The notes: generated by a model from the sequence alone, not told the origin. A DNA stretch of 64,000 nucleotides from Spirochaetales bacterium (GCA_947478845.1 CANJXC010000004.1:124001-188000); one strand, 5' to 3'; shown: positions 30,945 to 46,081, counted from the first letter of the stretch. Translations and numbers: made by a program.

Positions 30945-31801
30945 CGACTGCAAAAAATGCTCGTCGCTTGCTCTTGCTCCTGTTTTGGCTTCCGGCTTTC
31001 GCCGGGGCAGAAGTTCAGTTGCGCAATGGCGATCCGGATCAAGCGCTCGTGTACTGGCTGCTCACCACCAACGATGCACCTTCACTGGCTGACCTGCCTA
31101 GGGCAAGCCTCCGCCATCGTTTCCTTGCCCCCGGTGAGACGGTGAAGTTAAGTTGGGAAGGATCTACCCTTGTGGTCTGTTTTCTCGAATGGAAGTCTGC
31201 TCTTGGATTCACGACTCTCGTCAAAGGCAGTTTCTTTGGTCAGGCCGATTTGCCCGACAATAAACAGGTTTCTCTCGATCACATGGGCATCCAAAACCAA
31301 GTAGGACGTATCCTCGAAGGATCTCTCGCTCAATGGGGCCTGACGCCGCCAAGACTGGCTCTTGGGGCGGGATTCTCTCAATGGTCTGCCGTTCCTTGGC
31401 TCGTCCAGTTTGGCTCTTCGTTTGCCCCAGCTGGTGGCCTCAAAGGTGTTCAGTTGCTTGTTAGCCCCCTCGCTCTCTGGTTCCACTTCAGTCTGTGGTC
31501 GGCTCCCGCTTCGTATCCAGGCACGTCTATTGTCCTAAAAGACGAGCATTTGTTCTGGGAAGTCCCTATTCCCGCAGCAACAGGCAGGGTGTGGCAGTTT
31601 GACCAAGAAATCAGCTTGGCAGTTGGCTCCTGTATCCGCACTGGCACGGAAGTGGAAGGTTGGATTGTCCTCGATCGGCTCGATGGCGCCTCCCGCAAGG
31701 CTCTTCTGAACCACGCTTTGGAACTCCGTTGGCTTGTGGAAAGGTCTCCAACACCCGATAATCTGTTCATGACCGAGTTTAGTCTCTTGGAGCTGCCTTG
31801 A
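30941..31801 (+). CDS. Uncharacterised secreted protein
   Basis: A 286-residue protein with a signal peptide (about residues 1-23, LLLLLFWLPAFAGAEV). The mature part is beta-rich with many tryptophans and no recognised domain or catalytic motif. Starts as ATGA overlapping the SpoIIE-phosphatase stop and overlaps the following zinc-ribbon gene by TTGA. Given its position it may act in the same envelope process, but nothing in the sequence shows how. Confidence 0.7.
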   Translation: MTTAKNARRLLLLLFWLPAFAGAEVQLRNGDPDQALVYWLLTTNDAPSLADLPRASLRHRFLAPGETVKLSWEGSTLVVCFLEWKSALGFTTLVKGSFFGQADLPDNKQVSLDHMGIQNQVGRILEGSLAQWGLTPPRLALGAGFSQWSAVPWLVQFGSSFAPAGGLKGVQLLVSPLALWFHFSLWSAPASYPGTSIVLKDEHLFWEVPIPAATGRVWQFDQEISLAVGSCIRTGTEVEGWIVLDRLDGASRKALLNHALELRWLVERSPTPDNLFMTEFSLLELP

Positions 31802-32073
31802 AACGCAAGTTTTACTGCGAACATTGCGCGGCCGAGGTTCCTCTTATTGCCTCCGAGTGCCCTTCTTGCCACCGTGGGTTCGGAGAGGTTTTGTGTCCTA
31901 AGTGCCGGCACAGCGGGGCATCACCAACATTTGCCAACGGATGTCCGGCCTGCGGATATTTGGCTGTCATTCAAGGTGAGGCTCGAGGCTCCTCCCTGTT
32001 TGCTCCCGTAATGTTCGTGATGTCGATTCTCCTCGTGGTTGCCGCGGGCGTTGCTTGGGTGGTACGCCGTTGA
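31798..32073 (+). CDS. Small zinc-ribbon membrane protein
   Basis: A 91-residue protein with four CxxC pairs (CEHC, CPSC, CPKC, CPAC) in the first 58 residues, enough for two zinc ribbons, then one C-terminal membrane segment (about 68-88, FAPVMFVMSILLVVAAGVAWVV) and Arg-Arg at the end. The likely topology is cytoplasmic zinc domain with a tail anchor. Start is TTG overlapping the upstream stop. Function unknown. Confidence 0.75.
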   Translation: MKRKFYCEHCAAEVPLIASECPSCHRGFGEVLCPKCRHSGASPTFANGCPACGYLAVIQGEARGSSLFAPVMFVMSILLVVAAGVAWVVRR

Positions 32074-32603
32074 GACTTCTCTTGGCATTGTTCCTGATTG
32101 TTCTGTGTCTCGCTACGAATCTGTCGGCGCAGACAAAAGTACTGCTTTCCACCGGTTTTGATACTTTTAAGCTCGGAATGCCCTTGGAAGAGCTGAAAAA
32201 AGCCCTCAAGAGCTCCACTTATTTCGTCTACGAAGGCGATCCAGACGTCACGCTCCTTTCGCGCCCCAACACGAGTTTGATCGACGTCACCGGGATAACC
32301 TATTTTTCCCACGGCGTGTTTCAGTTTCTCGATGGAACGCTTTACAGCATCACCTTGGAACTGAACCCCGTGCAACTAGATTACTTTTCCATGTATACCA
32401 CCCTTACCAAAAAGTACGGGGATCCAGTTGCCCTCGATCCAAGCACGGCACGGTGGGAAAGTTCCCAAGTTCGCTTGACGCTCGAAAGGCCACTTTCCGT
32501 GAAATACCTAGACATGCCCCGTTTTCTAGCCCTCCAAAAGAGTGGCACGACTCAAAAAGCCCTTCAAAGCCTTACCCGGGAGCGTTTTCTTGAAAACTTT
32601 TAG
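32070..32603 (+). CDS. Uncharacterised exported protein
   Basis: A 177-residue protein with a signal peptide (about residues 1-20, LLLALFLIVLCLATNLSAQ). The mature part contains the pattern FDTFKLGMPLEELKKALKSS..Y and Y-x-M-x-x-x-L-x-x-K-Y-G-D-P, reminiscent of small periplasmic proteins of unknown function that compare an amphipathic helix with a beta sheet. Start is TTG at 32070, giving a TTGA overlap; an earlier in-frame TTG would spoil the signal peptide. The 3' end overlaps the DUF192 gene by 14 nt. Confidence 0.7.
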   Translation: MRLLLALFLIVLCLATNLSAQTKVLLSTGFDTFKLGMPLEELKKALKSSTYFVYEGDPDVTLLSRPNTSLIDVTGITYFSHGVFQFLDGTLYSITLELNPVQLDYFSMYTTLTKKYGDPVALDPSTARWESSQVRLTLERPLSVKYLDMPRFLALQKSGTTQKALQSLTRERFLENF

Positions 32604-33030
32604 TGGTACTTTCCTCTTCTTGCTGTTCCTTTCCTGCTCGACCTCGGCGTTGCCGGTCCGGGAACTCAAAGTCGGCAGTGCTGTCTTCCAAACAGAATTG
32701 GCTTTGAACCCGGCGGACCGCGAAAAGGGGCTCATGTTCCGTGATGCACTTCCCGAGTCGAGCGCTATGCTTTTTATTTTTCCAGATGAGGCCCAAAGAG
32801 TTTTTTGGATGAAAGATACAAAGATTCCGCTGTCGATTGCCTACATCAGCAAGCAGGGGGTGATCAAAGAGATTTTAGATATGCAACCTTATTCCTTGGC
32901 CGCGGTACCTTCATTGCACAGCGTGTCGTACGCTCTGGAAGTTAACCAGGGTGCCTTTGTCCGCCAAAACGTGAAAGTAGGCGATCAGATAGAACTTTCA
33001 GTCCTCAAGGGGCTTTCGGAAGCTCAGTAA
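32590..33030 (+). CDS. DUF192 protein, probable lipoprotein
   Basis: A 146-residue protein with an N-terminal hydrophobic segment ending in LFLSCSTS, which could be a spirochaetal lipobox with Cys16 as the lipidated residue. The rest is a DUF192 domain: ADREKGLMFRDALPESSAMLFIFPD, FWMKDTKIPLSIAYIS and VSYALEVNQGAF are the family's conserved blocks. The function of DUF192 is unknown. TTG start at 32590 with GGGAG 7 nt upstream, inside the end of the previous gene. Its 3' end overlaps the convergent xseB by 26 nt. Confidence 0.82.
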   Translation: MKTFSGTFLFLLFLSCSTSALPVRELKVGSAVFQTELALNPADREKGLMFRDALPESSAMLFIFPDEAQRVFWMKDTKIPLSIAYISKQGVIKEILDMQPYSLAAVPSLHSVSYALEVNQGAFVRQNVKVGDQIELSVLKGLSEAQ

Positions 33031-33241
33031 AAAGTTCAAAGGTCGGGTCGGAAACCGCAGAGGGCGGGTTCAAGAGGATCTCCACCTTCTTCTCCATCTT
33101 TTCTAGTTCTTTTTCGAGGCCCTGTGCCAATTGTATTCCTTCTTCGAAACTCGTAAGAGCCTCATTCAAGGGGGTCATCGGTGACTTGATGGCCAATGTC
33201 AATTGCTCCAGCCTTGCCAAACGTTCCTCAAAGTTTTTCAT
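33005..33241 (-). CDS. xseB: Exodeoxyribonuclease VII small subunit
   Basis: A 78-residue helical protein with the family core NFEERLARLEQL, LNEALTSFEEGIQLAQGLEKEL and KKVEILL. Forms the multi-copy small subunit of ExoVII with XseA. ATG at 33241 lies 11 nt inside the xseA reading frame, so translation is coupled. The C-terminal tail overlaps the convergent DUF192 gene. Confidence 0.93.
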   Translation of the reverse strand: MKNFEERLARLEQLTLAIKSPMTPLNEALTSFEEGIQLAQGLEKELEKMEKKVEILLNPPSAVSDPTFELFTELPKAP

Positions 33242-34439
33242 CGATAATCTCCTTGACTTCGACCACCGCACGGTCGCTATGGAACCGCAGGCTTAGTGCG
33301 TCTCCTGCTTTCAGTGAAGCAGCGGATGAGACGTTTCTCCCGCTTTGATCGGTTATCAGCGCATAGCCCCTTTCAAGAACAGCGAAAGGGCTCAGGGCTT
33401 CAAGACGTGATATTTGGTTCTCGAGGGTTCGACGCACATCTTTCAGCCTCGCTGCAATAGCATCGAGAAGCATTTCTTTTGTGTCGTCAAATCTCTGGTA
33501 GGCGGGTTGAAGCACCCTACGCAGTGTTTCCGCTATCCTTTCTGGACGGAAATCAACGAGGGACAAACGAGTCTTTTCCAGACGGGCCAACACGAGTTGA
33601 GCAAAGTCATTTCGAATGGCTTCCAGGGAGGGTCGAAGCGTCGACCAAGTGCGTGATAAAAAATCAGCCGCGGATGTCGGGGTCGGTGCCCGGTAATCGG
33701 CCACCAAATCGCTCAGGGGGCGGTCAATTTCGTGTCCGACGGCAGAAATTACAGGAACCTTCGAAGTGAAAATGGCCCGGACAACGGCTTCTTCTGAAAA
33801 GCACAGGAGGTCTTCCACCGCACCTCCGCCGCGGGCAACAACAAGGACGTCGGCCAAGTTTCTTTCCGACACATAGGAGATCATTTTCGCAATCTGCGCT
33901 CCCGCTTCCACGCCCTGCACCAATACCGGGAAGACCCGGATTGTCGCAGTGACGTTGTTTTGTTGAAATACCCTCAACATATCTTGAACGGCAGCTCCGG
34001 TGGCACTGGTTACCAGACCGATAACGCTAGGAGCCATGGGAATAGGGCGCTTGCGGGCCTGGTCGAAAAGACCTTCGCTTTCCAATTGGCGCTTCAGGCG
34101 CTCTATACGGGCAAGCAGATCGCCAAGACCGAGGGGCTCGAGGGAGTTTACAACCAGCTGATAGCTACCTTGAGGTTCGTAAACCGTCAGTCGTCCGGAA
34201 ATCCTGACCTTTTGGCCGTCTTCGGGAATAGAGCCTCCGCTGCGGAGATTCCAATTGAACCAAACGACCTTGACCACAGCTCTGTCGTCCTTGAGGGAGA
34301 AATAAAGGTGTTTTGAGGCTGTGCTCCTGAGACCAGTGATTTCTCCCTCCACCACCAGACTGGTCAAACCCTCTTCGAGAAGTTCCTTGACAAGGGCGGT
34401 AAGCCCGGAAACGGACAAGGCGGCGGTGGGTGCGAGCAT
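33228..34439 (-). CDS. xseA: Exodeoxyribonuclease VII large subunit
   Basis: Large subunit of ExoVII, which degrades single-stranded DNA into short oligonucleotides. The 403-residue protein has the N-terminal OB domain (VVEGEITGLRS..HLYFSLKD), the catalytic core with VIGLVTSATGAAVQDML, DVLVVARGGGAVEDLLCFSEEAVVRAI and SAVGHEIDRPLSDLVADYRAPTPTSAAD, and a C-terminal coiled coil. Start at ATG 34439 gives the usual N-terminus; the frame stays open upstream into the divergent gene. No Shine-Dalgarno is present; a -10-like TATGCT ends 6 nt before the ATG. Confidence 0.95.
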   Translation of the reverse strand: MLAPTAALSVSGLTALVKELLEEGLTSLVVEGEITGLRSTASKHLYFSLKDDRAVVKVVWFNWNLRSGGSIPEDGQKVRISGRLTVYEPQGSYQLVVNSLEPLGLGDLLARIERLKRQLESEGLFDQARKRPIPMAPSVIGLVTSATGAAVQDMLRVFQQNNVTATIRVFPVLVQGVEAGAQIAKMISYVSERNLADVLVVARGGGAVEDLLCFSEEAVVRAIFTSKVPVISAVGHEIDRPLSDLVADYRAPTPTSAADFLSRTWSTLRPSLEAIRNDFAQLVLARLEKTRLSLVDFRPERIAETLRRVLQPAYQRFDDTKEMLLDAIAARLKDVRRTLENQISRLEALSPFAVLERGYALITDQSGRNVSSAASLKAGDALSLRFHSDRAVVEVKEIIDEKL

Positions 34440-34445
34440 GGGGTG

Positions 34446-34474
34446 AGCATAGCGGTTCTCCTTGCCAAAAGCAA
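34446..34474 (-). promoter_or_regulatory. Promoter of xseA-xseB, predicted leaderless
   Basis: Minus-strand TTGCTT (34474-34469), 17-nt spacer and TATGCT (34451-34446), 6 nt before the xseA ATG. It overlaps the divergent spiro-SPASM promoter, so the two may compete for polymerase. Confidence 0.5.
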
Positions 34475-34490
34475 TAATTCTGGGGATGAT
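34462..34490 (+). promoter_or_regulatory. Promoter of the spiro-SPASM operon, predicted near-leaderless
   Basis: TTGCCA (34462-34467), 17-nt spacer and GATGAT (34485-34490), 8 nt before the ATG at 34499; the expected transcription start is within 1-2 nt of the ATG. An in-frame TAG at 34490-34492 excludes an upstream start. Confidence 0.5.
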
Positions 34491-34498
34491 AGGGTTGC

Positions 34499-35941
34499 AT
34501 GAAGACCCTTGCTTTGCTCGTAAACTTCCATCGATACCCCTCAAGAGAGTTGCTCTGGGATGGGAAAACGGCGACCGAACGCCTGAGAGCTCTGGTGCAG
34601 TCGCTCGAGCCTGAGGCCCCAATCTTGGAGATTGGTCCCTTTAAAGATACCACCGAGTACCTCGAGGCCTTGGTGACTGCCTGCCAGGGATGGGAAGAAG
34701 CGGTCTTTTTTGCCGCTGATGCTCCTTACACGAGAGCAGACGTGAGTTCACAGTTGCTGCACTTGCACCGTCGCTATCGCGCTGAATACACCTTCGCCGA
34801 CGGATTCCCTTCAGGGTTGACCCCTGAGGTTCTTCACCCACGCATCTTGCCCACACTTCTGGAGTGGTCGAAAAAAAAGCCTTCCCCCGCTGGTCGTGAG
34901 TCCCTTTTCCAGTTATTGTCCACCGATATCAACCGTTTTGATGTTGAAACCCACCTTTCTCCAGTCGACCTCAGGTCGAGGCGCCTTTCGTTGACTGCCG
35001 ATTCGGCGAGGGGAGTTTTACTGCTCCGTCGGGTTGAACCCTGGAACTCCCTCCCATTGAAAGAGTTTCTTGATAATCTGGAAAAGATGGGAGCTCTGGT
35101 ACGCACTTTACCGGCCACTTTGCAGGTGCAGGTAACCAACGGAGTACGTCAAGTCCCCCAATGGTCGCCGCACCTCCAGTTCGACCCTCGCGCTCTGGAG
35201 GCCCGTGATTTTCTCTCCCGCCAGAACTGGAACAGGCTCTTGGATTCTATGCTGAGTTTTGCAGGGGATCTGACGGTGATGCCTGGCTTCTGGGGTGAGC
35301 CTTCTATGCATCCTCAGATTTGTGGGCTGCTTTCCGATGCCCTTGCCAAGCCAGGCTTGGCATTGTGCATCGAAACCTCGGGACTTGGTTGGCGAGAAGA
35401 TGACTTGCTCCTGCTCTCTAGGGAATCAAGGGGTAACCTGGAGTTCATTGTGGAACTGGATTCCCTGGTGCCCGAGACCTACCTGCGCCTTCGCGGCGAT
35501 GGGTTCGAAGAAGCCTTGGCGACGACCCTAAGGCTTATAGAGCTGTTCCCAGGCAAAGTTTGGCCGCAAACCGTCCGAATGTTGGAAAACGAAGATGAAA
35601 TGGAGGGGTTTTACAAGTACTGGACTGAAAAGGCAGGACGGGTCATCCTTCAAAAGCACAATCATTTCGGTGGCAGGTTGCCTCAGCTTAAACCTGCTGA
35701 CCTTTCACCCTGGGCACGACACCCATGTTGGCACGCTGCCCGTGACTTGGCAGTTTTCCTTGACGGGACTACCGTCCCATGCCGTGACGATTTTGCACGC
35801 ACGCAGGTGCTGGGCAATGCTTTTTCCGAGACCCCGGAGGTGATTTGGAACCGGGGTTCGACTCTGTTCGGATTGCACCTTTCCCAGAACTATCCGTCAG
35901 TCTGTCGGAATTGTGATGAGTACTACACCTTCAACTATTAA
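34499..35941 (+). CDS. Spiro-SPASM protein (radical-SAM-like barrel without the SAM cluster)
   Basis: A 480-residue protein matching the spirochaete-specific spiro-SPASM family. Three parts can be seen. Residues ~1-125 follow the pattern of SpsF-type nucleotidyltransferases (GKTATERL; ADAPYTRADVSSQLLHLHRR; FPSGLTPEVLHPRIL). Residues ~150-400 look like a radical SAM barrel (GFWGEPSMHPQICGLL; IETSGLGW; FIVELDSLVPETYLRLRG; KHNHFGGRLPQL) but the CxxxCxxC cluster motif is absent. The C-terminal part is a reduced SPASM/twitch domain with Cys410, Cys428, Cys469 and Cys472, enough for one Fe-S cluster. Function unknown. First gene of a seven-gene operon of sugar-nucleotide-type enzymes. Confidence 0.85.
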   Translation: MKTLALLVNFHRYPSRELLWDGKTATERLRALVQSLEPEAPILEIGPFKDTTEYLEALVTACQGWEEAVFFAADAPYTRADVSSQLLHLHRRYRAEYTFADGFPSGLTPEVLHPRILPTLLEWSKKKPSPAGRESLFQLLSTDINRFDVETHLSPVDLRSRRLSLTADSARGVLLLRRVEPWNSLPLKEFLDNLEKMGALVRTLPATLQVQVTNGVRQVPQWSPHLQFDPRALEARDFLSRQNWNRLLDSMLSFAGDLTVMPGFWGEPSMHPQICGLLSDALAKPGLALCIETSGLGWREDDLLLLSRESRGNLEFIVELDSLVPETYLRLRGDGFEEALATTLRLIELFPGKVWPQTVRMLENEDEMEGFYKYWTEKAGRVILQKHNHFGGRLPQLKPADLSPWARHPCWHAARDLAVFLDGTTVPCRDDFARTQVLGNAFSETPEVIWNRGSTLFGLHLSQNYPSVCRNCDEYYTFNY

Positions 35942-36863
35942 GCCAGCCTACACGGTGGTTGGAACGGCAGCTGTGCCTATGCCTCTGCAACGGTTTGACT
36001 ATTCTGTGAGCCTTGTGGTGCTCACAAGAGATAGCTGGCTTTACAGGCTAGCGGTCCTCGAGGAGTTCTATCAGCTCGGCTTTTCAGAGGTACTTTGCAT
36101 CGAGACGGCTCCCCTCAAATACGTTCCCAACGAGGTTCTCGAACGTTTGCCTGGTCTGAGGCTGATGATCTTGAGCCAGCCCTGCACGGTGGGAGAAAAG
36201 ATCAATCTGGCAGCGGCGGAGTTGACCGGCGAGAGTTTTCTCGTACTTTGGGATGACCAGAAACTGCCCGAAGCCGGGCTTCACACAAAAGTGAACAAGC
36301 TTTGGCAAGAAACAAGAGCTCTCCTCCTGGTGCCCGAACTTCGGGATACCGAGGGAAGAGAAATTCCCGGAGTTCTGGTACCCAGCCTCGATCAGAATCG
36401 ATTGCGGGTGCTTGCATTGCCCAACGAGGACGAACATGGTTCCACGCTGTTTCCTCAGGATCTTTCGGGACTGTACAATCGGGAGATGTTTTTGCGCTCG
36501 GGAGGTTTTGACCCGGAGATTCAGGAAACATACTGGCAAAAAGTTGATTGGGGTACCCGGTGTCACCTCTGGGGAGAGCAACTTCTTATCAGCCGGGTCT
36601 TTCGCTTGGATCTTCGCTTACCGGTAGCAGCTGAGGATCAATCGGCAGGTTCGGGGAGCCTGCGCTTCTATCTTAAGAACCTCGCGCTTCGTTACACCGG
36701 CGACCACGCTGTCTTGCCTTGGAGCCGTTTTCCCCTCTACTGGCGTCATTCCGGCTCGACGTTCTTCGGATGTCTTTCGGATTTTCGGAACGTGAGGGCC
36801 TGGGTCCACAGGAATCGCTATCGTTTTAAGGCCGATGCAAAAATGTTGGTTGAACGATGGTGA
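35916..36863 (+). CDS. Glycosyltransferase-like protein (GT-A fold)
   Basis: A 315-residue cytoplasmic protein with the outline of a family-2-type glycosyltransferase: a first strand YSVSLVVLTRDSWLYRLAVLEEFYQLG, a nucleotide-binding region TVGEKINLAAAELTGESFLVLWDDQK in which WDDQ occupies the place of the metal-binding DxD, and an acceptor region GVLVPS...GLYNREMFLRSGGFDPEIQETYWQKVDWGTR. Donor and acceptor cannot be inferred. The ATG at 35916 gives a 26-nt overlap with spiro-SPASM; a GTG at 35955 is an alternative. It overlaps the next gene by 7 nt. Confidence 0.75.
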   Translation: MSTTPSTIKPAYTVVGTAAVPMPLQRFDYSVSLVVLTRDSWLYRLAVLEEFYQLGFSEVLCIETAPLKYVPNEVLERLPGLRLMILSQPCTVGEKINLAAAELTGESFLVLWDDQKLPEAGLHTKVNKLWQETRALLLVPELRDTEGREIPGVLVPSLDQNRLRVLALPNEDEHGSTLFPQDLSGLYNREMFLRSGGFDPEIQETYWQKVDWGTRCHLWGEQLLISRVFRLDLRLPVAAEDQSAGSGSLRFYLKNLALRYTGDHAVLPWSRFPLYWRHSGSTFFGCLSDFRNVRAWVHRNRYRFKADAKMLVERW

Positions 36864-37543
36864 ACAAGGGGATTTCCGCTGTTTTCCTTCAGGTTCGTCT
36901 GGATTCTACCCGACTTCCGCGCAAGGCCCTTGCCAACCTGGGTGGTAAGTCTGTTTTGGAACATTGCCTGTCTGCCCTTTCGCGTGTAGGCACTCCCCTT
37001 CAGATCGTGGTGACCGAGCCTGCGAGTTTCAACGAGGTCTGTCCGCTTGCCGAAGCAGCAGGCTGGAAAGTGTTCTCGGGAAGTAAGGACAATGTTCTCG
37101 ATCGTTTTGTGCAGGCGGCCCGGAAGTATAAATGCCAGACCATAATCCGAGCGACGGCCGACAATCCTTTGGTCTCTGCCTTCTTGGCCAACACGCTTCT
37201 AGAGGAACACCTGAGGGCCGACATGGACTATTCCGGCTACCTCGAAGGTCCTGAAGGTTCTGGAGTTGAGATACTGCGTGTCGGTGCCCTCGAAGCCGCA
37301 TGGGGTTCGACGCCCGACGCGTATGAATGTGAGCACGTGAGCCCTTACCTCTACCGGCGTCCGGGCACATTCAGGATTCACCGGCCCGTTATTCCGGACC
37401 AGTTCAGGTACCCACAAGGACGAATCACAGTGGACACGGCCGATGACCTGATCTACCTGAACCGAATGTGGAAGGCTCTCGATCCCCAAACGCCCCCTCA
37501 ACTCGAGGAGGTGATCAACTGGCTCAAGGAGAACCCCCGGTGA
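36857..37543 (+). CDS. SpsF-type cytidylyltransferase-like protein
   Basis: A 228-residue nucleotidyltransferase of the SpsF/CMP-sugar synthetase group. The nucleotide loop VFLQVRLDSTRLPRKALANLGGKSVLEH is near the N-terminus (Arg replaces the usual Gly before Lys), followed by VFSGSKDNVLDRFVQAA, TIIRATADNPLVSA and a substrate segment GSGVEILRVGALEAA. Such enzymes couple a sugar, often a nonulosonic acid, to CMP. The actual sugar here is unknown. Overlaps the following fusion gene as GTGA. Confidence 0.85.
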   Translation: MVNKGISAVFLQVRLDSTRLPRKALANLGGKSVLEHCLSALSRVGTPLQIVVTEPASFNEVCPLAEAAGWKVFSGSKDNVLDRFVQAARKYKCQTIIRATADNPLVSAFLANTLLEEHLRADMDYSGYLEGPEGSGVEILRVGALEAAWGSTPDAYECEHVSPYLYRRPGTFRIHRPVIPDQFRYPQGRITVDTADDLIYLNRMWKALDPQTPPQLEEVINWLKENPR

Positions 37544-39315
37544 GCGCCCGAGTCGTGCTGATTCCCAATACCATGCTTTCCCAAGGGACAGGACACTTGC
37601 ATCGCTGTTCGAAAGCTTTCGCTGCCAATCCTGAACACCTCGCCCTCTGGACCTGCCTAGACCCGGCACTTCTAGGCACAAAAGAGCTTTTTTCGCACGA
37701 CGCAATGAGTACCTTTTTGAATGGCCTTGCTACGGCCTCGACACCTGCAGAGGGTCAATATGACGTAGCAGTCCTCGATTTTCAGAGGACGCCCCCGGCT
37801 CTGCTTAACTGGGTAAAGAGCCGAGTTTCGGTCGTAATCGGTTGGGACGAGGGCGGGGTAGCAAGGCCTTTTTTCCCTTTTCTGGTGGACTCTCTACCCC
37901 ACGAAAGTTTGCCAGCCCCCAATGTTCGCCTTCCCGGTCTGCTGGGCTACCCAGAATGGGAACCCTCGAAAACCGGTGGTTTCTTGAGGCCGATTCGCAA
38001 CGTGCTGGTGTCTTTTGGCGGTGCCGATGTGGCCAACCTCACGGTGCGCTTCTTCCGGTACTGGGCGAAACTTGAGCGCAAAAACCCCTCTGGTTTGAAC
38101 CTCACCTACGTCCAGGGGCCCTTTGCCCGGTTCGAACTTCCCGGCCCTCTGCCCACTGGTTCGAAACTCGTCAAAGCTCCAAAAAACTTTTCAAACCTCG
38201 TGGCCGAAACTGACCTTTTGGTGACATCGTGGGGTCTAACGATGTTGGAAGCTCTCTCCAACGAGAAACCAGTCATCCTGTTCAATCCTTCGCGCTACCA
38301 TGAGAAATTGGCGGTCCGTGCTCAAATGCCGACTTTAGGGCGTTTTGCGTTGCTGCGAAGTCGGTGGGCAGCGGCCTTGAAGAGTGCTCCTGCGGCTTCG
38401 GATCAAGCGGCCAAGCGTTTTCTGCCGTCCCCGGTCAGTGCGGCCTCCTACTTCGGAGGCTTTTCCGGGACTACGGCCCGATGCCCGGTATGCCGCACCG
38501 ACGGTCACAAAGTTTTCGCGCGGACCGAACACAAGTCCTTCTTCTATTGCCGGTCTTGCTCGATGGAGTTCCTCTCGGTTTACCAGCTACCGCCCAAGCA
38601 GTATTCCGACTCCTACTTCTTTCAGGACTATCAGGCGCAATATGGGAAAACCTACTTGGAAGACTTTCAGCATATTGAATCCTTGGGGATACAACGGCTG
38701 AAGTTCTTGGCAACACTCGGACAAAAGCCCGAGCGGGTGCTTGACGTCGGCTGTGCCTTTGGTCCGTTTCTTTCGGCGGCCTCGAAAGCTGGAATCCAAC
38801 CCTTCGGTATGGATATTGCCGCCTCCGCTGTCAATTACGTGAAGTTAACACTTGGCTTTCCAGCCGTTCAGGGATCTTGGCTTGAATTCCAGTGGTTTAA
38901 GTCGTTTTCCTCTGCCGCTCCGGATCTGCTTACCATGTGGTATGTGATCGAACATTTTCCCGACGTGAATCAGGTGCTTCGCAAGGTTTCGGAAGTACTC
39001 GCCCCCGGCGGAGTCTTTGCCTTCGGTACGCCCAATGGAAAGGGCATCACCCGCAAGTTCCGGGGGGCCAAGTTTTGGGAGGAAAGCCCGGAGGACCATT
39101 TCTCGGTCTGGAACCGTGAGAATGCACTGCGCATATTGCCCCGTTACGGCTTTGAAGTGCTGGGATTTCGCAATACCGGTCAGCATCCGGATCGCTTTCC
39201 CGGACTTGCTCTTAACCGGGGATGGCGCTACCGGCTTGTTTCATGGTGGGGTTCGTTGCGGGGTTGGGGCGACACGTTCGAAGTCTACGCCAAGAAAGTT
39301 CGGGAGTTACCATGA
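37540..39315 (+). CDS. Fusion of PseG-like/GT-B domain and SAM methyltransferase
   Basis: A 591-residue two-domain protein. Residues ~1-300 resemble PseG, the UDP-sugar hydrolase of pseudaminic acid synthesis, or a related GT-B enzyme: QGTGHLHRC (His19 at the PseG catalytic position), VLVSFGGAD and DLLVTSWGLTMLEALSNEKPVILF. Then a zinc-binding pair CPVC/CRSC (about 315-340) leads into a class I methyltransferase with the SAM loop VLDVGCAFGPFL (about 400) and MWYVIEHFPDVNQVL..LAPGG. The GTG start has AAGGAGA 7 nt upstream; an open frame continues upstream only inside the previous gene. The fusion suggests that a released or transferred sugar is methylated by the same protein. Confidence 0.82.
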   Translation: MSARVVLIPNTMLSQGTGHLHRCSKAFAANPEHLALWTCLDPALLGTKELFSHDAMSTFLNGLATASTPAEGQYDVAVLDFQRTPPALLNWVKSRVSVVIGWDEGGVARPFFPFLVDSLPHESLPAPNVRLPGLLGYPEWEPSKTGGFLRPIRNVLVSFGGADVANLTVRFFRYWAKLERKNPSGLNLTYVQGPFARFELPGPLPTGSKLVKAPKNFSNLVAETDLLVTSWGLTMLEALSNEKPVILFNPSRYHEKLAVRAQMPTLGRFALLRSRWAAALKSAPAASDQAAKRFLPSPVSAASYFGGFSGTTARCPVCRTDGHKVFARTEHKSFFYCRSCSMEFLSVYQLPPKQYSDSYFFQDYQAQYGKTYLEDFQHIESLGIQRLKFLATLGQKPERVLDVGCAFGPFLSAASKAGIQPFGMDIAASAVNYVKLTLGFPAVQGSWLEFQWFKSFSSAAPDLLTMWYVIEHFPDVNQVLRKVSEVLAPGGVFAFGTPNGKGITRKFRGAKFWEESPEDHFSVWNRENALRILPRYGFEVLGFRNTGQHPDRFPGLALNRGWRYRLVSWWGSLRGWGDTFEVYAKKVRELP

Positions 39316-40772
39316 CAAAATATGTTCTTCTGCTCGGTGGTGGGCAGATGCAAGTCCCTGCCATTCAATGGTGCCATAAGCTTGGCTTCGGTGTCGTCTG
39401 CTTCGATGGCAAGTCTGAGGTACTTGGTCAGCCGTTGGCCGATCATTTCGTCGTTTGCGACATCAGCAACTACGAACTCTGTTTGGCAACAGCTCGCGGT
39501 CTGCGCGGGCAATTTGATCTTCGGGGCGTCCTCACGGTAGGGACTGACTTCTCCACCACCGTTGCGTGGGTTGCCTCTGGTCTTGGGCTTCCTGGAATCC
39601 CCTTTGAAGTGGCCCAGCGCGCCAAGGACAAGGCAATGATGCGCGAATGCTTCGCAAGAGCTGGGGTTTCCTCGCCCGATTACCAGGTTTGGAAACACGG
39701 TGACTCAGAATCTTTTGTTCCACGTTTTGGTGTTCCTTGTGTCGTAAAGCCTGTCGACAGCATGGGAGCACGTGGCGTACAGTTGGTGACATCGATGAAG
39801 GACCTTGGCTTGGCGCTGCTCGCCGCCGGGAAACATTCAAGAAGCGGTCGGGTCATCGTAGAAGAGTATATTGACGGCCCCGAGTTCTCCCTCGATGCGA
39901 TTGTTGATAACGGCCAGGTTCATCGCATGGGTCTTGCTGACCGTCATATTGTTTTCTCTCCCTACTTTGTTGAAATCGGGCACAGCTTTCCCACAAGAGT
40001 TGATTCGGCTCAGGTGGAAGCTTTGTGGGCCGAGTTTGAGAAAGCTATCCAGGCCATAGGTATTGTGCGCGGTGCCGCGAAGGGGGACCTCAAGATGTCC
40101 TTGAAGGGCCCGGTGATTGGTGAAATTGCCGCCCGTTTGTCCGGTGGATATATGTCTGGCTGGACCTATCCCCTGTCATCCGGTCGGTCGGCGACCATTT
40201 GGGCCATCGAAGCCTGTACTGGTCTTCCCTTGAAGGCTCAAGGTGAGGACCTTTTCCGTCCGGTTGCAGAACGAGCATGGATTAGCATACCGGGAATTGT
40301 GAAATCCCTGCACGGGCTCGAAGCTGTACGAGCCTCTGAGGGTGTAGCTGAAGTTTTTGTGACGTTGAAACCTGGACAACGAATGGTGTTTCCCACCAAC
40401 AATGTCGAAAAAGCCGGAAACCTGATCTGCACGGCACCAACCCTAGGAGGCGCCGAAAGTTTGGCCCGAAAAGCCCGCAACCTCCTCGATATTGAACTGG
40501 AACATCCTAATTCCGAAACCGAAACCTTTCTGTTTGGGTCGGCACCCAGCCGTTGGTGGTTTGAACAAGCAGGGACCTGTGACTCAACTCTTTGGTGGCA
40601 GCGAGCGAGACAAGAGGAATGGAAAGACCCTTACGGAAACACCATCGACGAACTTCTTTCCATCCTGGGTTGGTCTCAACACACACCCGAGCTCGGCAAT
40701 CCTCGCGTGCTGAGAGCGCTCTTCAAGGGTGGGCTTCAAGGTTTGCGCTACGAGGCAAGGCTTAGCAGTTGA
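39312..40772 (+). CDS. ATP-grasp ligase
   Basis: A 486-residue protein with an N-terminal pre-ATP-grasp Rossmann-like domain (YVLLLGGGQMQVPAIQWCHKLGFGVVCFDG) and an ATP-grasp core with PCVVKPVDSMGARGVQLV, VIVEEYIDGPEFSLDAIV and GPVIGEIAARLSGGYMSGW. These enzymes join a carboxylate to an amine or similar nucleophile through an acyl-phosphate. The C-terminal ~90 residues are specific to this protein (LARKARNLLDIELEHP onward). It may add an amino acid or another group to the sugar handled by the upstream enzymes; this is inference from the neighbours. ATG start with CGGGAG and a 4-nt overlap. Confidence 0.85.
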   Translation: MTKYVLLLGGGQMQVPAIQWCHKLGFGVVCFDGKSEVLGQPLADHFVVCDISNYELCLATARGLRGQFDLRGVLTVGTDFSTTVAWVASGLGLPGIPFEVAQRAKDKAMMRECFARAGVSSPDYQVWKHGDSESFVPRFGVPCVVKPVDSMGARGVQLVTSMKDLGLALLAAGKHSRSGRVIVEEYIDGPEFSLDAIVDNGQVHRMGLADRHIVFSPYFVEIGHSFPTRVDSAQVEALWAEFEKAIQAIGIVRGAAKGDLKMSLKGPVIGEIAARLSGGYMSGWTYPLSSGRSATIWAIEACTGLPLKAQGEDLFRPVAERAWISIPGIVKSLHGLEAVRASEGVAEVFVTLKPGQRMVFPTNNVEKAGNLICTAPTLGGAESLARKARNLLDIELEHPNSETETFLFGSAPSRWWFEQAGTCDSTLWWQRARQEEWKDPYGNTIDELLSILGWSQHTPELGNPRVLRALFKGGLQGLRYEARLSS

Positions 40773-41833
40773 TGCCTTGGCCACGCTTCTACTGCCTACT
40801 CCTGTGCGCGATTGCGTTCCCCCTTGCAGGCGAGTCGGGCCGCCCTGTGGCATTGGCAGATCTTGCAACGGCTGTTGGGGCCCAACTATGGATGGATCCT
40901 TGGAGGGGGGTTGCCTTGCTGCAAACCCCGAACCGGACCCTTTCAGTTGACCTCCAAACGGGCGTGGCACTCGCAGACGGCGAGCAGGAACTTCAGCTTC
41001 AGCCTTTCAAGTCCTCGTCCACCGGGCCCCAGCTTTCCCAAGAAGACTACACGCGACTCAAGGACTGGTTTTCTTTGACAGCCCCAGGAAAACCTTTGGT
41101 ACCTCCTGCTCCGTTAGAAGTCATACCGCGGTCCGATCCGCATCGTAGGGTCCAGGTCATTGTGCTGGACGCAGGACATGGCGGTTCGGACCCGGGAAGT
41201 CTAGGCCGTCACGAGTTTGGCGGCCAATCAGTAGTGCTCCGGGAGAAAGATCTGACGCTCGCCGTTGTGCTGGAAGCAGAGCAGTTGCTTCGCGCCAAAT
41301 ATCCCGACAGAAACATCATACTGACACGGAACTCCGACACATATCCAACCCTGGAAGAGAGGGTCAAACTGGCTCATGCCCAGAACCTGGGCCCCCACGA
41401 TTCGATTCTCTTTCTGTCCGTCCATTTCAACGCCTCGCTTAACCCCAAGGCCAGCGGACTCGAGTTTTGGTATGTACCACATGACTACGACCGTGAGGTC
41501 ATCGCGACGAAAGATGTTCCCGAGTCAGTTTTTCCAGTTCTCAATCTTATGGTCGACCAGGAGTTCAAGAAAGAAAGCATGGAACTGGCTAAGAATCTGG
41601 CCACCAGCCTGGCGCAGGAGTTGGGAGATTCGCAAATTCAACGAGGTCTGAAGGAAAATCCTTGGTTTGTCGTTCGTATGGCACGCATGCCAGCTGTGCT
41701 GGCTGAACTGGGCTTCATAACAAATCCCGACGACGCCTACCGCCTCCAGAACCCGGCGTACTTGAAGCAACTAGCACGGGGTCTCTATATTGGACTTTCT
41801 TCCTTTATTCAGAAATACGAGGATCTGCCATGA
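40772..41833 (+). CDS. N-acetylmuramoyl-L-alanine amidase, AmiC type
   Basis: Periplasmic zinc amidase (Amidase_3) that cleaves the peptide stem from peptidoglycan. The 353-residue protein has a signal peptide (about residues 1-20), a ~100-residue N-terminal domain and the catalytic domain with zinc ligands His136 (LDAGHGG), Glu158 (LREKDL) and His218 (SVHFNA), plus catalytic Glu312 (LAELGFITN). No LysM or SPOR domain is present. ATG shares one base with the preceding stop. Combined with the GerM gene it suggests local wall remodelling, for example for flagellar insertion or daughter-cell separation. Confidence 0.93.
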   Translation: MPWPRFYCLLLCAIAFPLAGESGRPVALADLATAVGAQLWMDPWRGVALLQTPNRTLSVDLQTGVALADGEQELQLQPFKSSSTGPQLSQEDYTRLKDWFSLTAPGKPLVPPAPLEVIPRSDPHRRVQVIVLDAGHGGSDPGSLGRHEFGGQSVVLREKDLTLAVVLEAEQLLRAKYPDRNIILTRNSDTYPTLEERVKLAHAQNLGPHDSILFLSVHFNASLNPKASGLEFWYVPHDYDREVIATKDVPESVFPVLNLMVDQEFKKESMELAKNLATSLAQELGDSQIQRGLKENPWFVVRMARMPAVLAELGFITNPDDAYRLQNPAYLKQLARGLYIGLSSFIQKYEDLP

Positions 41834-42294
41834 ATATTGACCGCGTCCTTCTGTGGGGGGTGAGCCTATTGGGGTTCGCCTTCTTGCTTTCTTTGGGCCT
41901 TTACTTGTTGGTGCCTGGGGCCCTGACCCGAGTCGTTCTCAGCTTTCCAGAAGAGATTACAGCCCGAACTGTCCCAGAAATCCGCTATTTACCTTTCAAT
42001 TGGGATGAAGAACACAATGTGCGGATGTTGGTTAACGAAATTATGCTAGGTCCGGCTCGCCACGATCACGAAAGGCTATTTTCCCGCCACGCCGTAGCCC
42101 TATCCGTGCTTGTCAGGGGTAGCACAATTTATCTCGATTTGGGGAAAGCCTCTTTTATTCCTGATCCTGATGTACTATACTCACCTGAAACGTCCTTGGA
42201 TGTCCTTAAAAAGACTGTATTGGACCACTTCAGGAACTTGTCGGCAATTGAGGTTTCGGTCGAGGGGCAGATGGCCTTCGATAAAACTCGTTGA
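41830..42294 (+). CDS. GerM-domain membrane protein
   Basis: A 154-residue protein with one N-terminal membrane anchor (about residues 7-30) and a GerM domain (about 50-145; VRMLVNEIMLGPARHDHERLF, TIYLDLGKASF, LDVLKKTVLDHFRNL). GerM proteins have been linked to peptidoglycan and spore germination in Firmicutes; here it follows the amidase with a 4-nt overlap, so a wall role is plausible. The flaA -35 element lies across its stop codon. Confidence 0.8.
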   Translation: MNIDRVLLWGVSLLGFAFLLSLGLYLLVPGALTRVVLSFPEEITARTVPEIRYLPFNWDEEHNVRMLVNEIMLGPARHDHERLFSRHAVALSVLVRGSTIYLDLGKASFIPDPDVLYSPETSLDVLKKTVLDHFRNLSAIEVSVEGQMAFDKTR

Positions 42295-42318
42295 CAAAGA
42301 ATGGAGCATCCATATAAT
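42291..42318 (+). promoter_or_regulatory. Perfect-consensus sigma-70 promoter of flaA
   Basis: TTGACA (42291-42296), 16-nt spacer, TATAAT (42313-42318): all twelve positions match. Predicted start near 42325 and a ~32-nt leader with AAGGAG. No sigma-28-type element is seen, so flaA appears to be driven by the main sigma factor. Confidence 0.9.
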
Positions 42319-42356: not shown

Positions 42357-43349
42357 ATGAAAAGGTTTTTCACGATTCTAGGTGTGGCTCTGTTCCTGGC
42401 TAACAGTGGGGCCTTTGCAGAACAAGCTACTCTCATCGATTTTGCGAAGTTGGTCGGTTCAGGGGACGCGGGCCTTCATGCTCCGACCACCCTCGACTAC
42501 TCTCGCCAGGCGGGTTCCGCCTATTCCGCAGAAGACAAGGCAAAGATGAAGATTTCTTTGGCCATCCCAAGTTGGGAAATCAACTTGGCTTCTTCGTCCC
42601 GCACCGTGGAAAACCAGACCCTGTCGTTCATCACCGCGGCGCCTGTAAAGGCTGATGCGGCTAAGTATGCCGGAGAAACGGTTATGGGTGTTCGGGTTCA
42701 CTTTCCTGACTTTGGTGTGAACTCTTTTGCTTTGATCCGCCCTCCGTTCACGATTCCTGCTTATGCTACCCTCGATGGAGATCAGACAGCCAAGACGGGA
42801 GCACAGTTCGATGGCTACGGCATCCTGAAGAACGTAGGTGTTGTTAAGTCCATACAGATCAACATTCTTGGCCGCAACTTCCCGAATGGTCTGTCGCTGC
42901 TTCTCGAGAACGAGTTGGGTGAAGAGCAGGAAATCTTCATGGGATACCTGAACTTTGACGGATGGAAGTCCCTGACCTGGAATAACCCTGACTATCTGCA
43001 ATCTGTTCGTAACAGGGAGCTGAAAATCAATGCGCTGTATCCTCGTTCGTCGCCTTTCATGAAGCTGAAAGGTATCATTATCAAGCGAGATTCGGCTCAG
43101 GAAGGTGGCGACATCGTCTCCTACATCAAGGACATCAAGGTCATCTACGACCTCGCTGTGGTTGATAGAAACGCCGACGTTGATGACGAAGCCGTTTGGG
43201 GTATCCTCAAGAAGCGAGAGGAAGCAGCGCGTAATTTTGAGCTTGCCCGCTTAGGTAACCTGCAGGTCCTACGAGCGTTGGAAGACAAGAAGAAAGCCAG
43301 CGAGTCGGGTTTTGACTCTCCCGCTTCAACGGTCGGCACTGTCAAGTAA
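42357..43349 (+). CDS. flaA: Flagellar filament outer-layer protein FlaA
   Basis: Sheath protein of the spirochaetal periplasmic flagellum, which surrounds the FlaB core. The 330-residue precursor has a signal peptide (about residues 1-22, ending SGAFAEQ) and the FlaA family pattern: LIDFAKL, VENQTLSFITAAPV, VMGVRVHFPDFGVNSFALIRPPFTIPAY, GILKNVGVVKSIQINILGRNFPNGLSLLLEN and FDGWKSLTWNNPDYL. ATG 42357 has AAGGAG at 6 nt; an upstream in-frame start lies within the leader. Strong promoter and strong terminator make it a stand-alone, highly expressed gene. Confidence 0.95.
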   Translation: MKRFFTILGVALFLANSGAFAEQATLIDFAKLVGSGDAGLHAPTTLDYSRQAGSAYSAEDKAKMKISLAIPSWEINLASSSRTVENQTLSFITAAPVKADAAKYAGETVMGVRVHFPDFGVNSFALIRPPFTIPAYATLDGDQTAKTGAQFDGYGILKNVGVVKSIQINILGRNFPNGLSLLLENELGEEQEIFMGYLNFDGWKSLTWNNPDYLQSVRNRELKINALYPRSSPFMKLKGIIIKRDSAQEGGDIVSYIKDIKVIYDLAVVDRNADVDDEAVWGILKKREEAARNFELARLGNLQVLRALEDKKKASESGFDSPASTVGTVK

Positions 43350-43634: not shown

Positions 43635-43663
43635 ACACTACGGTTCGGTGGCCCGTTTGTCAA
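43635..43663 (-). promoter_or_regulatory. Promoter of the tRNA-Val gene
   Basis: Minus-strand TTGACA (43663-43658), 17-nt spacer, TAGTGT (43640-43635). Start of transcription would be about 10 nt before the mature tRNA. The -35 lies across the ilvN stop codon. Confidence 0.7.
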
Positions 43664-44169
43664 TTGCGGGAGGTATAGCCTTCACCGCGACTTATCAGAA
43701 CCTTACCACTCCTGACAAGTTCGAGGATACCGTAGGGCATAAGCATTTCCTTGAGCGCATCAAGTTTTTCGCTCTTGCCAGTCACCATCAGGGTCAAGGT
43801 TGTCGCCGTCAGATCTTCGGTGACAGCCTTAAACGTCTGGGCAATCTGTAAGACTTCAGTTCTGCGGTCTTGCGGACAATTGACCTTGAACAGGCCTAGT
43901 TCTTTTTGGATGACGTCTTCGGTTGAGTAGTCGCGGGCGCTCACCACGTCAATCAACTTGTTTAGCTGTTTAAGTATCTGCTGGAGAGTAGGTAGATCGC
44001 CCAACGCGACAATGTTCATATAGGAATACTCTGGGTCAGTAGACTCAGACACGACCAAAGAGTCAATGTTGTAGCCCCGCCGCGAGAAGACCTGAGCGAT
44101 TCTGTTGAGAACACCCGGTTTGTTGGCGACGTACAGGCTGATCGTATGTTTTAGCGTTGTTGCAGGCAC
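43660..44169 (-). CDS. ilvN: Acetolactate synthase small (regulatory) subunit
   Basis: Regulatory subunit that confers branched-chain amino acid feedback on acetolactate synthase. A 169-residue protein with an N-terminal ACT domain (KHTISLYVANKPGVLNRIAQVFSRRGYNIDSL) and the second ALS-type domain (VTEDLTATTLTLMVTGKSEKLDALKEMLMPYGILELVRSG). GTG at 44169 is preferred because GGGGGA lies 7 nt upstream and it starts 1 nt after the ilvB stop; an upstream in-frame TTG lies inside ilvB. Confidence 0.94.
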   Translation of the reverse strand: MPATTLKHTISLYVANKPGVLNRIAQVFSRRGYNIDSLVVSESTDPEYSYMNIVALGDLPTLQQILKQLNKLIDVVSARDYSTEDVIQKELGLFKVNCPQDRRTEVLQIAQTFKAVTEDLTATTLTLMVTGKSEKLDALKEMLMPYGILELVRSGKVLISRGEGYTSRN

Positions 44170-44170
44170 G

Positions 44171-45883
44171 TCAGGTTCCCCCCGTTGGTTTTTCAAGTTT
44201 TCGTTTCGGGGCTTCCAGCAACATTTCCTTGAGGCTTGCCCCCGCCGGAATCATAGGAAACACATTGTCGTGCTGTTCTACTTCGGCCTCGATGATGCAA
44301 GGACCATCGTTGTACGCCAGGGCGCTCCGAAGCACTTTTTTGACGTCTGCAGAGCGTTTAATGCGGAAACCTCTCATACCGTACGCTTGTGCTAGCTTTA
44401 CAAAGTCGGGATTTCCTTCAAGGTCAACACCCGAAAGTCGGTCGTCGTAGAACATATTCTGCCATTGACGAACCATACCGAGGTGGCGGTTGTTGATAAT
44501 CAGAATCTTCACCGGGAGTTTATGGATGACCGCCGTCGAGAGTTCCGACAGTGTCATTTGAAAGCCACCGTCGCCAACGATTGCAACAACTATTTCATGG
44601 GGACGACCCAGCTGTGCGCCTATCGCGGCTGGAAACCCAAAGCCCATGGTGCCCGCTCCACCAGAGGAAAGCCAGTTGAATCGTTCGTCCGTAAGGTAGA
44701 ACTGAGCCGCCCACATCTGGTGCTGGCCAACATCGGTGGTCACAATGGCCTTTCCCTTGGTCAACTTATACATTTCCTCAATCACATGTTGGGCGCGCAA
44801 ACGCCCCTCCTTGCGGAAATGTAAGGGAAACTCCCGTTTCCAGCGTTTGATCTGCTTGATCCAAAGGGAAGTGTCACCACGTTCCAGATGGGGCAAAAGA
44901 GCCTGCAAAACGACCTTAGCATCACCGAGGAGCTCGCAATCAACCTTGACGACCTTGTTCATTTCAGCAGGATCTATATCGGCGTGAAGGATAACGGCGT
45001 TTTCACCGAAATCCGCATAACTTCCCACAATTCGGTCGTCAAAACGGGACCCTATGGAAAAGATAAGATCGGCTTCCACCATGGCTTTATTGGCGTAGGC
45101 GGTTCCATGCATACCGAGCATTCCCAAACTCATTTCATGGGACTCGGGGAAGGCGCCCTTACCCAGCAGAGTATTAGTAACGGGAACATGTAAAATCTCA
45201 ACCATCCGAGCTAATTCCTCATGGCAACCCGAGATGATCGCTCCATTGCCAACCAGCAGAATGGGCTTCTTAGCTGCCTTGAGGAGTTGCGCTGCACGGC
45301 TTATTTCGACGGGGTCTGGTGTCCCTGGAATCGAGTAACCTGGCAACTGAAAAGCAGCGGCGACGTCCGTCGCCACACTACTTGAGATATTCTTGGGTAA
45401 GTCAACCAGAACGGGACCTGGACGCCCAGAACGTGCCAAGTGAAAGGCTTCCCGCATGATTCGAGGAAGATCTGCCACATTTTTGACAAGATAAGAATGT
45501 TTGACTACTGGCTGGGTGATTCCGAAAATATCTGCCTCTTGGAATGCGTCTAGCCCAAGGTTCCATGTGGGAGTTTGCCCACTGATTACGATTAAGGGAA
45601 CCGAATCGAGGAAAGCAGTAAAAAGACCAGTGATCGCGTTGGTTGCACCCGGGCCGGAAGTGACCAACGCAACGCCTACTTTTCCGGTTGCGCGGGCGTA
45701 CCCGTCAGCCATATGAGTGGCACCTTGCTCGTGGCGGGTGAGGATAAGTTGGATGCTGCGTCCTACTAGAGCATCAAACACGGGAATGGCGTTGCCCCCT
45801 GGTAGGCCAAAAATGTACTCCACTCCCTCCTGAATCAGAACGTCTATCAGTGCATCGGCCCCGGTGCGAGTCGGGTGGGACAT
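44171..45883 (-). CDS. ilvB: Acetolactate synthase catalytic subunit
   Basis: Thiamine-diphosphate enzyme catalysing the first common step of valine, leucine and isoleucine synthesis. The 570-residue protein has the TPP glutamate region ([40 protein letters not shown]), an FAD-binding central domain and the TPP motif [17 protein letters not shown]...[15 protein letters not shown] 45883 has a GGAGGT ribosome binding site preceded by a U-rich leader. Together with ilvN it forms a two-gene operon; ilvC and ilvD are not in the window. Confidence 0.96.
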
Positions 45884-46081
45884 GTCTACCTCCAAAAAAA
45901 CAAAAAAACAACTAAATAGTGGATAACACGCAAAAGAATGGTGAAAAATACTCCTCACGTCAAGAGATGTTCCGGTTAACAACTCAAATAACACTTAAAA
46001 AAAACAAAGAAATGTGAAAGTGTTGCCACAAAATTGGGTAATACGTCCAAAAAACCTTACAAGTGACTCAGAGATCTTGCC

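Follow-up and report, generated by a model that had tools for sequence, protein, structure and literature searches.

A nearly phylum-wide candidate gene set for the flagellin sugar of spirochaetes, interleaved with envelope genes upstream of flaA

Flagellins of Campylobacter, Helicobacter and Aeromonas are glycosylated through the Pse pathway, in which PseB, PseC, PseH, PseG, PseI and PseF make the sugar and Maf transfers it. Among spirochaetes, the FlaB glycan of Treponema denticola is reportedly, from work by Kurniyati in 2017, a monoacetylated nonulosonate of Pse configuration that carries a 2-methoxy-4,5,6-trihydroxyhexanoyl group on N7. The T. denticola glycan has a mass of 450.2 Da, and the filament of this organism cannot be assembled without glycosylation of its flagellin (PMC9481697). 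Leptospira FlaB1 is also glycosylated, with glycan density at the interface with the sheath; sheath and core seem to be held together by these glycans (PMC13144727). In the open-licence PMC literature we found no assignment of the treponemal sugar enzymes, and nothing useful on the acyl group, on spiro-SPASM, on non-glycosylation of Borrelia FlaB or on the Borrelia gene names of the GT-A homologue described below.

The operon and the promoter of flaA

We analyzed a 64,000-nucleotide stretch of DNA from a Spirochaetales bacterium (the window), in which seven overlapping ORFs, all on the plus strand, occupy positions 34499-42294 and lead up to flaA. The features of the locus are as follows.

31798-33030, plus: upstream block of zinc-ribbon, secreted-protein and DUF192 genes, syntenic with the Borrelia block before GT-A-amidase-GerM-flaA
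34499-35941, plus: spiroSPASM protein, 480 aa (TIGR04321, 442 bits against a curated cut-off of 250 bits; AF2 model, pLDDT 89; PDB folds; alignments)
35916-36863, plus: GT-A-fold protein, 316 aa from GTG 35913 (AF2 model, synteny, distribution)
36857-37543, plus: SpsF-type cytidylyltransferase, probable CMP-nonulosonate synthetase (CTP_transf_3, PF02348, 1e-23; PDB 6oew, a Leptospira cytidylyltransferase, 6e-14)
37540-39315, plus: PseG-like UDP-sugar hydrolase domain (GxGHxxRC) fused to a zinc-ribbon SAM methyltransferase (profile matches, including Methyltransf_23, 3e-21)
39312-40772, plus: ATP-grasp carboxylate-amine ligase of the L-amino-acid-ligase type (ATP-grasp domain and LAL_C2, PF18603, 8e-17)
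40769-41833, plus: N-acetylmuramoyl-L-alanine amidase, an envelope gene (Amidase_3, PF01520, 8e-42; synteny)
41830-42294, plus: GerM/Germane-domain membrane-anchored protein (PF10646, matched by 10 of 12 relatives and not by the window copy itself)
42291-42318, plus: sigma-70 promoter of flaA, TTGACA-N16-TATAAT, matching the consensus at 12/12 positions, conserved
42357-43349, plus: flaA, flagellar filament outer layer (sheath) protein (FlaA, PF04620, 2e-85; start better placed at ATG 42357)

With the best starts, spiroSPASM overlaps the GT-A gene by 26 nt (GT-A start ATG 35916), and the following overlaps are 7 nt (GT-A/SpsF), 4 nt (SpsF/PseG-methyltransferase, start GTG 37540), 4 nt (PseG-methyltransferase/ATP-grasp, start ATG 39312), 1-4 nt (ATP-grasp/amidase) and 4 nt (amidase/GerM). 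The order, strand and overlaps given by the original prediction are thus borne out, as are its family names (TIGR04321, CTP_transf_3, Methyltransf_23, PseG, ATP-grasp with LAL_C2, Amidase_3 and FlaA). Divergent xseB/xseA-like genes, identified by eye, lie on the minus strand between the DUF192 gene and spiroSPASM (33005-34622) and are missing at the corresponding spot in Borrelia and in locus L219. Genes resembling the small and large subunits of acetolactate synthase, also identified by eye, are convergent with flaA (43660-45994, minus strand).

The operon had been described as running into flaA. While flaA is indeed the next gene, it has a promoter of its own, and homologous sites (loci L032-L219) match the consensus at 11/12 or more positions in 57 of 71 genes; the two Borrelia copies are degraded (9/12). 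Because this near-perfect sigma-70 promoter is conserved, flaA can be transcribed alone and is more than the gene that closes the operon.

Two interleaved modules and their distribution

Where a Spirochaetia locus extends 9 kb or more downstream of spiroSPASM, the full order spiroSPASM, GT-A, SpsF, PseG-methyltransferase, ATP-grasp, amidase, GerM, flaA is intact in 58 of 73 cases (55, and 3 more where an additional SpsF-profile match falls on the paralogous spiroSPASM N-terminus), and the arrangement is therefore not due to chance. The core at the 37 loci outside the class is spiroSPASM-SpsF, sometimes with PseG-methyltransferase, amidase and flaA, and the GT-A gene was never seen there. SpsF, PseG and methyltransferase form a single chain in Treponema (loci L034-L044 and L220), one of 881 aa in the genome that we take to be T. 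denticola; in T. denticola and T. pallidum the cluster is located away from flaA. Brachyspira has spiroSPASM with no SpsF adjoining.

The Borrelia order (zinc-ribbon, secreted protein, DUF192, GT-A, amidase, GerM, flaA, cheA) is that of the window with exactly the four sugar genes missing. Only GT-A-amidase-GerM is retained in g94, an aflagellate genome of family f53. Locus L219, from a class member that lacks GT-A, reads spiroSPASM, SpsF, PseG-methyltransferase, ATP-grasp, amidase, GerM, flaA, che, and is probably the ancestral order. We read the operon as two modules, a sugar module (spiroSPASM, SpsF, PseG-methyltransferase, ATP-grasp) and an envelope module (GT-A, amidase, GerM, then flaA). 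The second, with flaA under its own promoter, would be an envelope/periplasmic-flagellum unit into which the first is interleaved, and the lack of the cluster in Borrelia would be explained as a clean excision around the retained GT-A-amidase-GerM-flaA unit.

The GT-A gene is a class-wide core gene of Spirochaetia and lies outside the sugar module. Of 150 good Spirochaetia genomes, 142 have it, among them 23/23 Borreliaceae and many that lack flaA, and it is kept together with the amidase and GerM genes. A divergent GT-A occurs in family f50, presumably Sphaerochaeta-like. In Borrelia the homologues at L197:7842-8801 and L198:5427-6386 stand directly before amidase-GerM-flaA-cheA. Since GT-A persists in Borreliaceae and aflagellates that have no sugar genes, it is independent of the sugar. 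Of the five genes first assigned to one sugar pathway four remain, and a pathway of all five is not supported.

We surveyed 218 Spirochaetia genomes, using absence of flaA, a single flagellar marker, as a proxy for absence of flagella; families f5 and f50 are presumably the Borreliaceae and a Sphaerochaeta-like group, as judged from gene content. FlaA was found in 171 genomes, spiroSPASM in 141 and ATP-grasp in 137. The original prediction called for co-occurrence with flaA and for absence from aflagellate relatives. We found that the sugar genes track flaA: outside Borrelia, 139/148 flaA-positive genomes have spiroSPASM and 135/148 have ATP-grasp, and each is present in only 2 of the 47 flaA-negative genomes, both of them incomplete MAGs (68% and 58% complete). 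Fisher's test against flaA gave p = 1e-32 with genomes counted as independent and kinship ignored. In the Borreliaceae both genes are absent (0/23), and this counts as a single loss. A joint loss is also seen within the single family f53, where g126 has all of the genes and g94 none. Co-occurrence with NeuB/PseI was likewise observed. Across 149 genomes of the phylum the genes are near-universal together (NeuB 143/149, Maf/MptE 145/149, spiroSPASM 144/149, ATP-grasp 143/149), and in the four Borreliaceae of this set all four are missing and FlaA is kept. The cluster is thus a nearly phylum-wide candidate gene set for the treponemal flagellin sugar.

A dispersed nonulosonate pathway and its target

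The prediction had stated that the cluster is not a standard Pse pathway. This is true of the window only. The genome encodes NeuB/PseI and a PseB-like/PseC-like pair elsewhere, so that a lack of Pse homologues, and with it the statement, does not hold at that level. The NeuB/PseI gene (L092:9470-10543) lies beside serS and matches NeuB (7e-62) better than PseI (3e-51), both below the equivalog cut-offs. On another contig a PseC-like transaminase (5e-102) adjoins a PseB/PglF-like dehydratase (1e-51), again both below cut-off. This pair, at L209:7331-9959 (G000 contig 8), is preceded by a NusG-like protein, identified by eye. The genome also has four matches to MptE-like (Maf) transferases.

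Within the cluster, SpsF matches KdsB models and gave no match to the PseF equivalog in the profile search. The PseG model (TIGR03590) is matched by 12/12 relatives (best 6e-13); the window copy is weak (9e-4, under the cut-off) with GxGHxxR conserved. In both outgroup copies examined (L202:6170-8341 and L203:6317-8650) the ATP-grasp domain is fused to an FMN-dependent 2-hydroxyacid dehydrogenase domain, which fits a substrate, and by inference an acyl group, that comes from a 2-keto or 2-hydroxy acid. The ATP-grasp open frames outside the Spirochaetia class are about 720-780 aa long.

The sum calculated for a Pse residue, an acetyl group and the methoxytrihydroxyhexanoyl group is 450.185 Da, against the reported 450.2 Da, and by calculation a reduced, O-methylated 2-keto-3-deoxygluconate has the right composition for the acyl group. 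Two enzymes that the composition of the FlaB glycan calls for, a carboxylate-amine ligase and an O-methyltransferase, are thus encoded in the cluster, and the module is also present in the presumed T. denticola genome. A methylated, amide-linked CMP-nonulosonate tied to flagella, as originally predicted, agrees with this chemistry and with the tracking of flaA.

The sugar module is probably a dedicated late part of a dispersed, pseudaminate-type nonulosonic acid pathway for flagellin, a proposal in which the reactions, their order and the FlaB target are deduced from gene content and the published glycan. On the best reading the steps supplied by the cluster would be the removal of UDP, activation to the CMP-sugar, O-methylation and acylation through an amide. 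The PseB/PglF-like dehydratase and PseC-like transaminase would generate a UDP-4-amino sugar, the PseG domain would remove UDP, NeuB/PseI would condense the sugar with PEP, and SpsF would activate the product with CTP. A hydroxy acid may then be joined to the free amine by the ATP-grasp ligase; in T. denticola this acid would be a 3-deoxyhexonate and could be reduced 2-keto-3-deoxygluconate. The fused methyltransferase would form the 2-O-methyl ether of the acid. Maf would transfer the sugar onto Ser/Thr of FlaB. FlaA and FlaB had both been named as targets; FlaB is the likelier, because T. denticola FlaB carries the 450.2-Da glycan (PMC9481697), Leptospira FlaB1 is glycosylated too (PMC13144727), and flaA has its own promoter.

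SpiroSPASM, alternative readings and known systems

The N-terminal domain of spiroSPASM is SpsF-like: SpsF itself matches TIGR04321, and spiroSPASM matches PDB 6oew. The alignment shows that it is without the CTP loop (RLDSTRLPRK in SpsF). The rest is a BtrN-like radical-SAM/Twitch domain, and the AF2 model has PDB fold matches to SkfB, SuiB, BtrN and 6oew. In the window copy the Twitch cysteines 410, 428, 469 and 472 are kept, the radical-SAM CX3CX2C triad is replaced by V216/P220/S223, and in the family the GE of the SAM-binding region is largely retained. In an alignment of 148 sequences the Twitch cysteines are present in 147/147 at three positions and 146/147 at the fourth, and the triad is intact in 96/148. 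The copies that lack it include that of the window and the T. denticola-like, T. pallidum-like and Brachyspira-like ones. On a FastTree phylogeny inferred with the triad columns removed, the triad changed state at least 17 times (38-46 in shuffles), or by Dollo parsimony was lost 21 times.

Four invariant Twitch cysteines and 17-21 triad losses without loss of the gene argue that the protein has kept a function for which the SAM cluster is dispensable, and the simplest reading of the sequences is that such a function is shared by the family. As a paralogue of SpsF without the CTP loop, spiroSPASM would most likely be a partner of SpsF, in a heterodimer or as a substrate channel, with a structural or redox-sensing Twitch [4Fe-4S] cluster; radical chemistry may also occur where CX3CX2C survives. 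We tentatively propose, at somewhat less than even confidence, that spiroSPASM is a former SpsF duplicate, now an obligate partner of the CMP-nonulosonate synthetase that needs only the auxiliary cluster and has lost the SAM cluster some 20 times. If this is true, flagellin glycosylation depends on an iron-sulfur protein. As a family, spiroSPASM is radical-SAM-like, and many of its members retain the auxiliary cluster alone. It is rather unlikely that spiroSPASM instead modifies the sugar as a genuine radical SAM enzyme, with the members lacking CX3CX2C as pseudoenzymes being lost. The BtrN/DesII-like domain and the 96 intact triads are consistent with this; however, the Twitch cysteines are kept even in all triad-less members, and the repeated triad losses left the gene in place.

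Two further alternatives concern the sugar module as a whole. The cluster sits with amidase, GerM and flaA, which all encode exported envelope proteins, and NeuB-type sugars are also found on glycolipids, so the nonulosonate could be made for lipooligosaccharide, a lipoprotein or FlaA, with an indirect link to flagella. This is improbable, since aflagellates that keep an envelope lack the cluster, Maf/MptE, a flagellin-type transferase family, co-varies with it, and the flagellin glycans known from spirochaetes sit on FlaB (PMC9481697, PMC13144727). Still less credible is that the GT-A protein is a flagellin glycosyltransferase using the CMP-sugar, which would restore a five-gene pathway. Its position inside the sugar module favors this, as does its AF2 model (pLDDT 87), a GT-A fold whose nearest matches are polypeptide GalNAc-transferases (PDB E 1e-11, TMq ~0.6). 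However, Borreliaceae and aflagellate lineages without sugar genes keep the gene, the sugar genes outside the class persist without it, no conserved Asp occupies the metal-binding DXD/DXH site (12 homologues, alignment judged by eye), and Maf is available as transferase. Membership of the GalNAc-transferase family was rejected, as the protein has no DXD/DXH and matched no Pfam family.

The preferred reading, a late nonulosonate pathway for FlaB, is closest to Pse flagellin glycosylation, with which it shares NeuB/PseI, PseG-like, PseB-like and PseC-like proteins, a CMP-sugar transferase, a Maf-type transferase and the tie to flagella. It differs in an SpsF/KdsB-type transferase rather than PseF, in the PseG-methyltransferase fusion, the ATP-grasp amide ligase and spiroSPASM, and in its dispersed genes. 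The T. denticola FlaB glycan is the chemical counterpart, as it calls for the methyltransferase and amide ligase of the cluster. The ATP-grasp protein resembles the L-amino acid ligases BL00235 and BacD in its ATP-grasp and LAL_C2 domains (PDB matches, E 4e-34 and 1e-19) but has an extra C-terminal region, or the FMN_dh fusion outside the class. SpiroSPASM resembles the Twitch radical SAM dehydrogenase BtrN in sequence (E 1e-14), in fold and in an auxiliary-cluster region with C...C and CX2C; unlike BtrN it is fused to a pseudo-cytidylyltransferase, and about a third of the family lacks CX3CX2C. Finally, the GT-A protein shares its fold with the polypeptide GalNAc-transferases (GT27), but at 10-13% identity and with neither a conserved DXD/DXH nor WGGEN.
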